Of a DNA stretch of 64,000 bases, positions 40,686 through 45,455 are shown one piece after another. The stretch covers positions 62,001-126,000 of the forward strand of contig NZ_KI543237.1 of the NCBI RefSeq assembly GCF_000496835.1, given 5' to 3'. Under the pieces are notes generated by a model. That model did not search any database. It was given only the letters and a program-made list of their open reading frames with translations, and was not told the origin of the DNA. Position 1 is the stretch's first letter; every line of letters begins with the position of its first letter. The translations under genes and the position numbers were made by a program. This DNA comes from Thalassobacillus devorans MSP14 (GTDB taxonomy: Bacteria; Bacillota; Bacilli; Bacillales; Halobacillaceae).

Positions 40686-40892
40686 TTACCCAACTACATC
40701 GTAGCCCTGGTCTTCAATAGCATCTTTCATTTTTTCTTTCGTTACGAAAGCTTCGTCATATTTAACATCTACTTTCCCCGCATCAAGATGGACTTCGACG
40801 CCGTGTACACCTTCTAATTCTTCCAGTGCACCTTTTACAGCCTTTTCACAATGACCACAAGTCATTCCATTTACTTCTAAAGTCATTTCCAT
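40686..40892 (-). CDS. copZ: Copper chaperone CopZ
   Basis: A 68-residue HMA-domain copper chaperone that delivers Cu(I) to CopA. The metal motif is GMTCGHC (Cys12/Cys15), with the ferredoxin-like ending DQGYDVVG. AAAGGA lies nine bases before the ATG. It is the last gene of csoR-copA-copZ; expression is expected to rise when copper releases CsoR. Confidence 0.95.
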   Translation of the reverse strand: MEMTLEVNGMTCGHCEKAVKGALEELEGVHGVEVHLDAGKVDVKYDEAFVTKEKMKDAIEDQGYDVVG

Positions 40893-40923
40893 ACGTTAAC
40901 ATCCTTTCTTAGCAAACTTTATT

Positions 40924-43305
40924 TTATAGTTTAACCCGCTTCAATCGAAGTGAGTTAGAAACAACACTTACAGAGCTGAACGCCATTGCAGCTCCTGCAA
41001 TCCATGGAGCAAGCAAACCTGCAGCTGCGATAGGGATTCCGGCAGAATTATAAGCAAGTGCCCAGAATAAATTTTGACGTATATTTTTCATCGTCTTTTG
41101 ACTTAACTGGACTGCCTTAGGAATCAACGTCAATTCTCCGCCTAATATCGTAAGGTCAGCTGCCTCGATGGCGACATCTGTACCTGTTCCGATGGCAATA
41201 CCTACATCAGCGATAGCCAGTGCAGGAGCATCATTGATACCGTCCCCGACCATGGCTACTTTTTTATCTTGCAACTGCAATTCTTTCACTCGTTCTGCTT
41301 TTTCCTCCGGTACTACCTCTGCAATGACCCGGTCAATTCCCAGCTGGCGGGCTATCGCTTGGGCTGTCCTTTCATTATCCCCTGTCAGCATGACCAGTTC
41401 GATATTCGCTTCCTTCAGCTGTCTTAAAGCTTCCGGTGCTGATTCTTTGATCGTGTCAGCTACGGCAATGACACCTTCAACTTTATCGTCCACTGCTATC
41501 AGCATAGCGGTTTTTCCTTTATTCTCCCATTGTTCCATGGTTGCTTCATATGCTTCATATTCCACATCCAGCTTACGAATTAACTTCCTTGTGCCGATTT
41601 GTACTTCTCTACCTTCCAAAATGGCTTTTATGCCATGACCTGGCACAGCTTCAAAGCTGCTTGGTTCCATCAGCTCAATTCCTTGTTGTTCTGCATAGGT
41701 GACGATTGCATCCGCTAATGGATGTTCTGAACTTTTTTCTGCGCTGGCAACCAGCTGCAGAATGTCTGATGAACCTTCATAGTTAGTCACTTCCGGTGTG
41801 CCTTTTGTCAACGTACCGGTTTTATCAAAAACAACTGTATCAATCTTATGCGTATTTTCTAAATGTTCGCCGCCTTTAAACAGGATTCCCTGCTCAGCAC
41901 CTTTACCAGTGCCTACCATTATTGAAGTAGGTGTGGCTAAGCCCAGAGCACATGGGCACGCGATAACTAATACCGCAATGGAAGCTACTAAGGCAGATGC
42001 AAAATCACCAGGCGAAACCAGAGAAATCCAAACGATGAATGTTCCTATAGCAATTGCTACTACAATGGGGACAAAATAGCCGGAAATGACGTCCGCCATC
42101 CGCTGTATCGGAGCTTTTGACCCTTGAGCTTCTTCAACAACTTTGATGATGCCAGCAAGTGCGGTGTCTTTCCCTACCTTAGTTGCTTTCATTTGAATAT
42201 TACCATTTTTATTGATAGTTGCTCCAATCAGTTTATCACCAGGGTCTTTCTCTACCGGAATGGATTCCCCGGTAATCATCGATTCATCCACCGAAGTATT
42301 TCCTCTGATGATTTCTCCATCGACTGGAATTTTCTCACCTGGTTTGACGATCAGAGTATCGCCAACGGCGACACTCTCCAGCGGGACCTTCACTTCTTCA
42401 CCATCTCGTAATACGGTTGCTTCTTTCGCTTGCAGATTAAGCAGACTGGAAATAGCCGCTGTAGTTCGCCCTTTCGCAACTGCTTCAAAGTATTTCCCTA
42501 CAAGAATCAATGTTATAAGAATGGCACTTGTTTCAAAGTAAAGATGTGGTTCCATTGCAGGATTTCCGAGCGACCGTAGAACTTCAGCCAGACTGTAAAA
42601 ATAAGCGGCACTCGTACCTAACGCGACAAGCACGTCCATATTGGCACTTTTATTCCTTAAGCTCTTAAAAGCTCCCACATAAAACTGCCACCCGATGATG
42701 AATTGTACTGGTGTCGCCAACGCAAACTGGAACCATGGGTTCATCAATAAATCCGGAATCGACAAGCCGAGCAGATGATCGAACATGGTTAACAACAGTG
42801 GAAATGAAAGGATTGCAGAAATATATAATTTTATCCGTTTCTTTTTCAATTCCTCTTCCTTTTGTGAAGCTTTTTCTTCGCGATCTGCTCTAAGTGCAGC
42901 GTCATAACCCAAATTCTGAATGCGAGCGATAATATCGTTCTCATCGATATCCCCGCTATATTCCACAGTAGCTGTTTCGCTGGTCAGGTTGACCGTTGCC
43001 TGTTGCACGCCTTCCGTTTTATTCAATACTTTTTCGATTCTTGCAGAACATGCAGAACAGGTCATTCCTGTAATATCAAACTCTGCTTTTTCGGTCTTTA
43101 CTCCATAACCCAGTTTTTCAATTCGTTCCGAAACATCTTCCGGTGAAACTTTGTCTGGATCATAAGTGACCCGGGCGTTTTCCATTGTCAAATTCACATT
43201 CGCTTCTACCCCGTCCATCTTGTTCAGTACTTTTTCAATTCTTGAGGAACAGGCAGAACAGGTCATCCCGGTGATATCAACGGAAAGATTTTTTTGCTCA
43301 GCCAT
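40924..43305 (-). CDS. copA: Copper-exporting P1B-type ATPase CopA
   Basis: Pumps Cu(I) out of the cytoplasm. It is 793 residues: two N-terminal HMA domains with GMTCSAC (Cys16/Cys19 and Cys83/Cys86), eight membrane helices, the actuator TGESIPV, the CPC copper site in [13 protein letters not shown], the phosphorylation site DKTGTLTKG, the HP motif in [10 protein letters not shown], and [11 protein letters not shown]. It is 15 bases downstream of csoR. Confidence 0.97.
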
Positions 43306-43320
43306 TTGGAACCCCCCTTT

Positions 43321-43635
43321 CTATTTTGCGAATTGTTTCATCACTTTCATCAGTTCTTCAATGGATTGATCACCATTACCAGCCTTGATAGCATGGCTGA
43401 CACAATGCTTGGTATGACGTTCCATCAGTGAAAAACCGACTTGATTCAATGCTTTATCTATGGCTGAAATTTGCACCAGTATATCTACACAATACCGGTC
43501 GTCTTCCACCATTTTCTGAATACCTCTAACTTGGCCTTCTATCCGCTTCAAACGATTCAGAACCTTTTGCTTCTCATCTTCTGTTCGTGGCTTGACCGGC
43601 TGCTTTCCGCTATTCTCAGGTAAAGATTCAGTCAA
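43321..43635 (-). CDS. csoR: Copper-sensing repressor CsoR
   Basis: All-helical Cu(I) sensor. It is 104 residues by a TTG start at 43635, six bases after GGAGGTG; a TTG five codons earlier has no ribosome site. The Cu(I) ligands show the exact family spacing: Cys49 (RYCVDIL), His74 (MERHTKH) and Cys78 (KHCVSH), 25 and 4 residues apart. The core KVLNRLKRIEGQVRGIQKM is the CsoR/FrmR/RcnR signature. It heads the cop operon behind its own operator. Confidence 0.95.
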   Translation of the reverse strand: MTESLPENSGKQPVKPRTEDEKQKVLNRLKRIEGQVRGIQKMVEDDRYCVDILVQISAIDKALNQVGFSLMERHTKHCVSHAIKAGNGDQSIEELMKVMKQFAK

Positions 43636-43664
43636 TGTTTCCACCTCCAATGATTCATACTTAC

Positions 43665-43693
43665 ACTATACCCCCGTATAGTATAATAGTCAA
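43665..43693 (-). promoter_or_regulatory. cop operon promoter overlapped by CsoR-type operator
   Basis: TTGACT (complement of 43688-43693), 17-base spacer and TATAGT (complement of 43665-43670). The palindrome ACTATAC-CCCC-GTATAGT (43665-43682) with its G/C-run centre covers the -10 and matches the CsoR operator style, so apo-CsoR would block polymerase. Confidence 0.85.
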
Positions 43694-43786
43694 ATAAAAA
43701 AAACTGGCATGTCGCCAAGTCTTTATGGCGAAAGACCTAAGTGTTTCTTTTTAATCCTTTAACAAAGTTAATCTTTCTCAAAGTAT

Positions 43787-43813
43787 AAAAAAGAGCAGCA
43801 ATTTGCTGCCCTT
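43787..43813 (-). terminator. Terminator of the DUF302 gene
   Basis: On the minus strand AGGGCAGCA and TGCTGCTCT form a stem followed by TTTTTTATA. Confidence 0.82.
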
Positions 43814-43821
43814 AGTATTAC

Positions 43822-44205
43822 CTATTTCGCTTCATTGATTGCACTTATCATTCTTTCCTCTATATCCTGTGCGATTTGATTCAGTTCTTCATCTTCCACA
43901 AATTCAATCAATTTGGTAGGTTTCGGCATCCCGATTTTTGTTTTGCCTTCACTTTCATGGACAACGATTTTACAAGGGAGGAAGTAACTTACCAATTCAT
44001 TTTTTTCCAGAACTTTTTTTGCCTCTGTCGGGTTGCATACTTCCAGAATACGCACTGGTTTCTCAAAATCCAGCCCTTTATTATTCAAAGTGGCTTTGAC
44101 ATCAAAGTCCCAAAGTACTCCGAACTTATCATTTTTCAACTCTGCTTCTAGAGCTTGTACCGCTTCATCCATGCCTTTGTTTGTCTCCACTGTGTAATGA
44201 AACAA
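43822..44205 (-). CDS. DUF302 family protein, TTG start
   Basis: A 127-residue cytosolic protein of the DUF302 fold. The N-terminal FHYTVETNKGMDEAVQALEAELK and the RILEVCNPTEAKKVLEKNELVSYFLPCKIVVHE core with two cysteines are typical. Function unknown; members often lie near sulfur, copper or persulfide-responsive genes. The start is TTG at 44205, with AAAGGAGG seven bases upstream. A palindrome of the CsoR/CstR type lies upstream, and csoR itself is the next gene, so control by a CsoR-family repressor is plausible. Confidence 0.85.
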   Translation of the reverse strand: MFHYTVETNKGMDEAVQALEAELKNDKFGVLWDFDVKATLNNKGLDFEKPVRILEVCNPTEAKKVLEKNELVSYFLPCKIVVHESEGKTKIGMPKPTKLIEFVEDEELNQIAQDIEERMISAINEAK

Positions 44206-44262: not shown

Positions 44263-44367
44263 TAAAACGAGTGATACACTTTCAATGCTGCATACTAAAT
44301 AAACAGGCTAATTGTTGAAAGCGTGTCTATTCTAACCTATGATGACATTGTAAAGAGGGGTGAGATA

Positions 44368-44640
44368 ATGCAGATTACAGATGAAGCTAAAACTGATATT
44401 ATTCAAATTTTAGAAGATAATGATGCAGAAGGTATCCGGCTGTTTTTAGCAGGAATTGGCTGAGGCGGGCCACAATTAGGACTGTCCCTGGACGGGGCAG
44501 AAAAAGATGATATGCTGGAAGTAATCAATGGAGTCAACGTTGCCATTGACCCTCATATTAAAGATATGACCGATTCTCTTCGCCTGGAAAAGCGGCCACA
44601 TGGCCTGGTTCTGGCCGGTATCCCAGCAGGGGACTGCTAA
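44368..44640 (+). CDS. HesB-like protein with in-frame UGA: candidate selenoprotein
   Basis: A 90-residue A-type Fe-S-carrier-like protein if the TGA at 44461-44463 is read as selenocysteine (residue 32). The context is LFLAGIG-U-GGPQLGLSLD; Cys homologues of the HesB-like group have GCGGP in this place, and HesB-like proteins are a known prokaryotic selenoprotein family. The frame is intact on both sides (31 residues before, 58 after), ends GIPAGDC, and has no other defect. AGAGGGG precedes the ATG at 44368. A hairpin meeting the bacterial SECIS rules follows the UGA, and a strong terminator closes the gene. A nonsense-mutated pseudogene is the alternative; the selenium genes would lie outside this window. 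Confidence 0.8.
44464..44500 (+). promoter_or_regulatory. Candidate bacterial SECIS element
   Basis: Just after the UGA, CTGTCCC (44482-44488) pairs with GGGGCAG (44494-44500), seven pairs including one G-U, closing a five-base loop TGGAC. The second loop base is the expected G, about 26 bases from the UGA; the published bSECIS pattern needs a small apical loop with an early G at roughly 16-37 bases. Confidence 0.65.
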
Positions 44641-44648
44641 GAATGATT

Positions 44649-44702
44649 GTCAATAAAAAGCGCGGTACGTCAATTTATGACGGCCGCGCTTTTTTATTGA
44701 CA
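44649..44702. terminator. Long bidirectional terminator
   Basis: GTCAATAAAAAGCGCGG (44649-44665) pairs with CCGCGCTTTTTTATTGAC (about 44684-44701) with an inner ACGTCA/TGACG stem, between the HesB-like gene and the converging STAS gene. Confidence 0.93.
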
Positions 44703-45455
44703 ATACTTTTGGATAGCCTTGTGTAAGGAACTGATGAACCGGAGCCCAAGCTTTAATTGCAGTTGATTGATTTTTTGAGCATGGTCAGGATTAACCCCTA
44801 TTACTACTATTTCTATCCCCATGTATGATAACGATTGGACAATATTCTGAAACACCACTATTCCATCATGGTGGATGTCACCGACAGCAGTTAAATCCAC
44901 AAGAATAGTTTCTTTATCGGCCTGTTGTGCAGCTTCAAGCAGGTTATCACTGATTGTATACATTTTTTCATCATTGAGATCACCGAACAGTGGGACTAAC
45001 GCAGTAGTGGAAGAGAGTTCAATAAAGGGAGCAGAAAGCCGATTATTTTCATCAATTGCTTCCTGAAGTTTTTCTTTTTCCTCCAGCAATTCAAAATTAG
45101 TGTTACTTAACCGGGAACGAAGCTCTCCTAACGATACCGTTATATCCGAAATCCGCTGATCTTTTGGAATTAGCAGGAGTTCTGCCTGAAGGTCGTTTTT
45201 CCAATGGATATAAAGATCTATTAAGAGCGGGTCGAGCTTTCGTTCCCCCTGATATATATTGATTTCCACTTTATTTTTGTTCTTGGCGGGGCTCACTTCT
45301 TCCTGTACCTTAGAAATACTTCCCTCGTCTACTAACTCGAGGAAGTTACTGGATAAATCAGTTATTTCTTCTACTTCTTTGCTGAAGTAAAGAACTTCAT
45401 ACTGTCTATTTATAATAAGGTATGGAACAGAAAAAATATTTTCAACTAGTTTCAT
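44694..45455 (-). CDS. PAS-like/STAS-domain signalling protein (RsbR-like)
   Basis: A 253-residue cytosolic protein: an N-terminal PAS-like sensor part (about 1-95, PYLIINRQYEVLYFSKEVEEITD), a coiled coil (about 105-145, LRSRLSNTNFELLEEKEKLQ) and a C-terminal STAS domain (about 150-250, FIELSSTTALVPLFGDLND, ILVDLTAVGDIHHDGIVVFQ). In RsbR proteins two threonines in the STAS domain are phosphorylated; aligning from memory, those places hold His and Lys here, so it may signal without phosphorylation. The ATG overlaps the end of the B12-binding gene by 14 bases, pointing to a joint function. Confidence 0.82.
   Translation of the reverse strand: MKLVENIFSVPYLIINRQYEVLYFSKEVEEITDLSSNFLELVDEGSISKVQEEVSPAKNKNKVEINIYQGERKLDPLLIDLYIHWKNDLQAELLLIPKDQRISDITVSLGELRSRLSNTNFELLEEKEKLQEAIDENNRLSAPFIELSSTTALVPLFGDLNDEKMYTISDNLLEAAQQADKETILVDLTAVGDIHHDGIVVFQNIVQSLSYMGIEIVVIGVNPDHAQKINQLQLKLGLRFISSLHKAIQKYCQ

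Follow-up and report, generated by a model that had tools for sequence, protein, structure and literature searches.

A divergent HesB-like gene with an in-frame UGA in Thalassobacillus is very probably a selenoprotein gene

In the 64,000-nucleotide stretch of the Thalassobacillus devorans MSP14 genome analysed here (the window), a short hesB-like gene carrying one in-frame TGA very probably represents a real, divergent selenoprotein gene. The observations as a whole are best explained, and we hold this reading with very high confidence, by a 90-residue HesB-like selenoprotein of predicted IscA fold, in which UGA32 would be decoded by SelB together with a downstream mRNA hairpin and in which Sec32 and Cys90 would provide the likely chemistry. 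HesB-like selenoproteins of the UxGP type are already known; what is new is a divergent Thalassobacillus representative which, by its predicted sequence, lies below the cut-offs of the curated NCBI models.

HesB-like proteins are listed as a selenoprotein family with the model TIGR01911 (PMC13188914, with the motif UxGP in its Table 1; PMC9312934), and Table 3 of a further study gives 90 such proteins in 86 organisms (PMC5029168), so that the initial annotation rightly treated this as a known selenoprotein family. For the Bacillales, the count given in 2006 was three selenoproteins (PMC1794560). No paper on selenocysteine in Thalassobacillus, on selenocysteine, selenoproteins and SECIS elements in Bacillaceae, or on selenocysteine and selenoproteins in Halobacillus was found in the open library.

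Results

Reading frame, flanking signals and neighbourhood

The frame at 44368–44640 comprises 91 codons from ATG to TAA, and its single in-frame stop is the TGA of codon 32, embedded in the motif GIG-U-GGPQLGL. Both the sequence and the alignment with Cys homologues agree in this respect with the initial annotation, which had also claimed a Shine-Dalgarno sequence and a strong terminator; sequences resembling these lie before the ATG and after the stop codon, respectively. The features are as follows.

44355–44362, plus strand: Shine-Dalgarno-like GAGGGGTG, 5 bases 5' of the ATG (from the sequence)
44368–44640, plus strand: hesB-like gene, 90 amino acids with Sec32 as predicted, stop codon TAA (from the sequence, NCBIfam matches below cut-off and dN/dS)
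44461–44463, plus strand: in-frame TGA, codon 32, probably read as selenocysteine (TGA in all five genus genomes, Cys in the Cys homologues, position of IscA Cys35)
44482–44500, plus strand: putative SECIS element of bacterial type lying within the coding sequence, its stem formed by 44482–44488 and 44494–44500, with the loop at 44489–44493 (UGGAC) (from kept pairs and covariation)
44635–44637, plus strand: codon 90, C-terminal Cys of the hesB-like protein (invariant in a 19-row alignment; C or CC terminates each of the 49 TGA proteins)
44646–44703, plus strand: intrinsic-terminator-like hairpin 3' of the gene (fold of –35.6 kcal/mol for 75 bases)
L024:8459–9517 (contig C1 of the same genome, outside the window), minus strand: selD with an in-frame TGA and a 7-pair hairpin

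The terminator-like hairpin holds a T run and is nearly symmetrical, and could thus serve both strands. Beside hesB, a copper-type set (a heavy-metal-binding protein and a copA-like P-type ATPase, identified by eye, and a csoR-like repressor, identified by Pfam) and a DUF302 gene lie at 40686–44205 on the minus strand. This order, judged with Pfam for the genes of the window and otherwise by eye, seems to be retained in T. pellis (L069) but not in Salibacterium (L070), and therefore no functional link was drawn and a copper-related role suggested by csoR, copA and DUF302 was dropped. A strict scan for in-frame TGAs conserved in comparison with T. devorans, covering the approximately 40 kb of the window that could be aligned, returned seven places, six of which oppose ORFs on the other strand; only the TGA of hesB does not.

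Conservation of the TGA and selection downstream

In the alignment around residue 32, which the initial annotation had proposed as a check, the TGA stands opposite the Cys of the Cys homologues, whose aligned codon is TGC or TGT. The TGA is present in all five Thalassobacillus genomes and in six other genomes of the order, as judged from a first survey of 61 genomes (the host and 60 relatives), and the TGA falls at the hesB-like motif in each of the 49 TGA copies read. The same annotation had pointed to frameshifts, or to sense codons other than Cys in place of the TGA, in related strains as signs of a pseudogene. This expectation has to be split by distance: the other four genomes of the genus searched keep both the TGA and an intact frame, with no frameshift among the five, whereas the wider family includes one protein with Glu at this position (L135), one row with TAA (G034) and one fragment with TAG (G167).

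Downstream of the TGA, differences fall mostly at third codon positions (7, 2 and 34 by codon position between the window and G002), and dN/dS amounts to 0.02–0.10 in nine of the ten genus pairs, the ratios being rough since dS exceeds 1 in most pairs; the remaining pair, G004/G003, gave 0.77 on five differences. Neither refuting condition named in the initial annotation, a lack of selA, selB, selC and selD or a decayed gene in related strains, was thus borne out.

The Glu-containing protein L135 (G169) carries the motif GQGEGSP and also lacks the terminal Cys, as would be expected if both residues work together. Since homologues without Sec exist, the selenol is, as far as sequence comparison goes, dispensable in the wider family. 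HesB-like relatives were also found in 21 plasmid records, all under 60% identity; nine of these, from Priestia, Paenibacillus, Peribacillus and Alicyclobacillus (H5–H9, H14, H15, H19 and H20), bear the label 'adhesin', apparently a misannotation passed on from record to record.

Selenocysteine machinery and co-occurrence with selA

The search for the machinery, likewise proposed in the initial annotation, was successful for every component. SelA (525 bits, cut-off 268), SelB (332, cut-off 242) and SelD (398, cut-off 125) all exceed their curated cut-offs in the host genome, as does a tRNA-Sec of RF01852 with its gathering threshold (61.9 bits against 47), and the four genes selA, selB, selD and that of tRNA-Sec lie in one cluster at C1:1191079–1197046.

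In the survey of 61 genomes, selA over the cut-off was found in 23 and tRNA-Sec in 21, and all 11 TGA genomes possess both. Among 150 genomes of the order, 39 contain a TGA copy of the hesB-like gene, and selA is present in every one of these 39 (Fisher P of 2e-15, kinship ignored). Conversely, 36 of the 75 genomes with selA have no TGA copy, and of 29 genomes with only TGA-free matches five harbour selA, some of these matches being distant paralogues (50–53 bits, e.g., in G052 and G096). With selA in 75 and the TGA form in 39 of 150 genomes, selenocysteine is not rare in this order, which qualifies the initial remark that most Bacillaceae lack it. In G024, which has a tRNA-Sec, selA appears in two overlapping pieces in different frames (G024:C1:2816041–2817410), which suggests a frameshifted gene.

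The selD gene of the host itself contains one in-frame TGA, in the motif KAGUGCK, presumably the usual Sec/Cys site of SelD, with a 7-pair hairpin downstream, which very probably makes it another selenoprotein gene of this Thalassobacillus genome. None of the eight formate dehydrogenase alpha matches (two over the cut-off) and not the single AhpD-type (CMD) match of the genome contained an in-frame stop.

The probable SECIS hairpin

In bacteria, a SECIS element is a hairpin directly 3' of the UGA whose loop has a G as its first or second base. Such a hairpin directly follows the TGA of the hesB-like gene, from base 19 on: CUGUCCC and GGGGCAG form seven pairs around the five-base loop UGGAC, with G in second place, exactly as had been described.

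When a simplified rule was applied, requiring 7 or more pairs, a loop beginning 16–37 bases past the TGA and a G as the first or second base of this loop, 260 of the 2669 TGA triplets on both strands of the window (9.7%) had a hairpin of equal or better quality downstream. When the same peptide was recoded with synonymous codons, seven pairs at the offset of the hairpin arose in 2.0% of 20,000 draws, and for 12 TGA homologues the corresponding chance of the observed pairing ranged from 0.7% to 15.5%. Taken alone, the hairpin of a single sequence says little, and it is the comparison across relatives that establishes it as real.

For this comparison, all 11 TGA rows among the 62 rows of the 61-genome search and all 45 TGA rows of the 150-genome search were merged into 49 genes with 46 distinct 52-base segments. 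The Cys homologues compared were a part of the stop-free rows, those whose loci were retrieved: 24 of 50 from the 61-genome search and 12 more distinct ones from the 150-genome search; L135, with Glu at position 32, belongs to neither class and was left out of the counts. At the same offset, at least six of the seven stem pairs are formed in all 46 distinct TGA homologues (seven in 34, six in 12) as opposed to one of 36 distinct Cys homologues, the other 35 having four pairs or fewer. Counted by stem cells, 310 of 322 are paired in the TGA set and 87 of 252 in the Cys set. The loop reads UGGAN in 46 of 46 TGA homologues, and the letters UGGAU occur also in two of the 36 Cys homologues. Sliding the partner strand by one to three bases lowered the pairing to 27–52%, and none of 2000 partner shuffles reached the observed value. 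As several Cys homologues encode a similar peptide at this place, the contrast between the Sec and Cys sets is hard to explain without a SECIS element.

Covariation was assessed in the first 12 TGA sequences, where three pairs show two-sided changes, in 13 cells, a number of cells that none of 500 shuffles reached. Three of five measures beat every shuffle; the number of pairs with two-sided change (reached by 183 of 500 shuffles) and the number of further pair types (reached by 354 of 500) stayed within the shuffle range, and all these counts are inflated by the relatedness of the sequences. Within Thalassobacillus, the third base is kept in six of seven stem-loop codons vs. 12 of 53 codons elsewhere (P of 0.002).

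The one Cys homologue with six of seven stem pairs (L042/L132, from G060) has the Sec-type motif GCGSP, comes from a genome without a selA match and neighbours a Sec protein in the tree; it may be a former Sec form that reverted to Cys and still carries the remnant of a SECIS element.

Family models, residues, predicted fold and tree

The best NCBIfam models for the protein are TIGR01911 (HesB_rel_seleno, 45.0 bits) and NF038090 (IscA_HesB_Se, 38.8 bits). It misses the curated cut-offs of both (66.35 and 85 bits, respectively), is hence not filed under the former, and also stays below that of Pfam PF01521 (16.3 vs. 26.3). Eight scanned relatives are likewise under the TIGR01911 and NF038090 cut-offs; NF038090 is the best or second-best model for all nine scanned proteins of the group, and none of the nine reaches its cut-off. 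The U-x-G-P Sec site shared with the TIGR01911 family is found as U-G-G-P at residues 32–35, and the similar size and the existence of Cys-containing homologues are further common traits.

Across 19 chosen rows of aligned Sec and Cys forms, position 32 is always Sec or Cys and position 90 always Cys; M1, I3, T4, A7, G29, G31, P35, G38, D48 and G84 are likewise invariant. The 49 TGA proteins end in C (13) or CC (36), the Thalassobacillus protein having one C-terminal Cys; the Cys proteins read all end in C or CC except L049, which extends two residues beyond its Cys.

The AlphaFold model of the protein (mean pLDDT of 87, and 70 for the C-terminal ten residues) has E. coli IscA (1r94) as best PDB match with an E value of 2.1e-5, and its residue 32 falls on Cys35 of IscA, by numbering counted from the alignment. 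The predicted fold is thus that of the A-type iron-sulfur carriers IscA and SufA, with Sec32 at the position of Cys35.

In a tree built from few columns, the Thalassobacillus proteins form a starred group with L107 next to Cys proteins of the GCCGP type, while the main Sec group lies elsewhere; support is weak at the deeper forks, the one joining this group with the GCCGP forms having a value of 90/50. The best tree needs four Sec/Cys changes, two of which are forced by starred branches. Among Sec proteins from outside the genus, L107 (G067:C68) lies closest in this tree and has a similar KRxHGLVL tail; its genome also encodes a further TGA copy together with a Cys copy. A separate HesB-like selenoprotein lineage, made up of the Thalassobacillus protein and L107 from another family of the order and grouping with the GCCGP form, would imply either an independent Cys-to-Sec change or a Sec-containing stem of the GCCGP Cys proteins; given this sequence tree, we regard such a lineage as rather doubtful.

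Discussion

The machinery in the host genome, the conservation of the TGA and the stem pairing across homologues together lend strong support to the proposal of a candidate selenoprotein, and the comparative evidence favours decoding of UGA32 as selenocysteine. In this process, SelB with Sec-tRNA-Sec would bind the hairpin 19–37 bases downstream of the UGA and insert selenocysteine, whereupon the ribosome would read the frame on to the TAA. For the Sec-tRNA, the cell would rely on SelA, tRNA-Sec and SelD of its own, SelD very probably being a selenoprotein too.

A nonsense mutation of a Cys codon might instead have inactivated the gene, as TGC and TGT of the Cys homologues are one step from TGA, and the TAA and TAG of G034 and G167 hint that decay may occur in the family. 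A pseudogene is nevertheless very improbable and this reading was rejected, as the TGA is kept in all five genomes of the genus searched and in 39 of 150 of the order, purifying selection goes on behind it without any frameshift in the genus, and TGA copies always come with selA in the sample. Least probable of all is a genuine stop or low-level readthrough, yielding a 31-residue peptide or a regulated extension. TGA is a normal stop in this genome, ending nine of 46 long ORFs of the window, but the 58 codons downstream evolve as coding sequence, the hairpin goes with the TGA and covaries, and plain readthrough would not require selA in every TGA genome; this possibility was discarded on these grounds. 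Since the nine ORFs ended by TGA are among 46 long non-overlapping ones, genome-wide reading of UGA as Trp was dismissed as well.

Regarding function, Sec32 and Cys90 of the putative selenoprotein most likely form a reactive selenol/thiol site, which could bind a metal or an Fe-S species or act as a redox switch. In A-type Fe-S carriers (IscA, SufA and ErpA), three Cys ligands are conserved, and a C-terminal CxC, a CGC pair in E. coli IscA and SufA, supplies two of them. A selenoprotein that is at the same time a genuine A-type carrier delivering Fe-S clusters is possible, albeit on balance unlikely: the modelled IscA fold (structural matches 1r94, 1s98 and 2d2a with 18–22% identity) and the location of residue 32 at Cys35 speak for it, whereas Sec takes the place of Cys at the first site, only C90 is found at the end, and the IscA alignment stops at profile position 87, before the two C-terminal Cys ligands of IscA. 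Archaeal SECIS elements differ from bacterial ones in type and place. The HesB-like selenoprotein MMJJ_08070 of the archaeon Methanococcus maripaludis, similar to ours by description, was reportedly recognised in earlier work through mutagenesis and 75Se labelling, and its function is described as unclear (PMC11097638). An unpublished observation quoted in the same article, according to which a hesB-like disruption mutant of M. maripaludis fixes nitrogen unimpaired, also argues against a carrier role.

More improbable still is a selenoprotein regulating an enzyme in the manner of YneR/PdhI of Bacillus subtilis, instead of acting in Fe-S, metal or redox chemistry. YneR/PdhI blocks the E1 component of pyruvate dehydrogenase, with Tyr31 in the lipoate channel of the predicted complex, as described in PMC10090944. 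Indeed, the modelled fold matches the PdhA-YneR model entry 9a4q_B (rank 10, E value of 0.012). Against such a role, YneR is absent from the sequence matches of the A2 profile at E up to 1, the presence of the YneR chain in the sequence set being unconfirmed, and the invariant residues 32 and 90 of the 19-row alignment point to thiol/selenol chemistry.

Because the small hesB-like protein falls below both curated models, standard annotation may truncate its gene or drop it. As none of the formate dehydrogenase alpha genes found has an in-frame TGA, selenocysteine decoding in Thalassobacillus might be kept up by few proteins, the hesB-like one and SelD among them. The coexistence of Sec and Cys homologues in one order, with the SECIS element going with the Sec set, offers a natural experiment on the gain and loss of selenocysteine. 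As an aerobic halophile related to Bacillus, this organism might be handled more readily in the laboratory than a methanogen.
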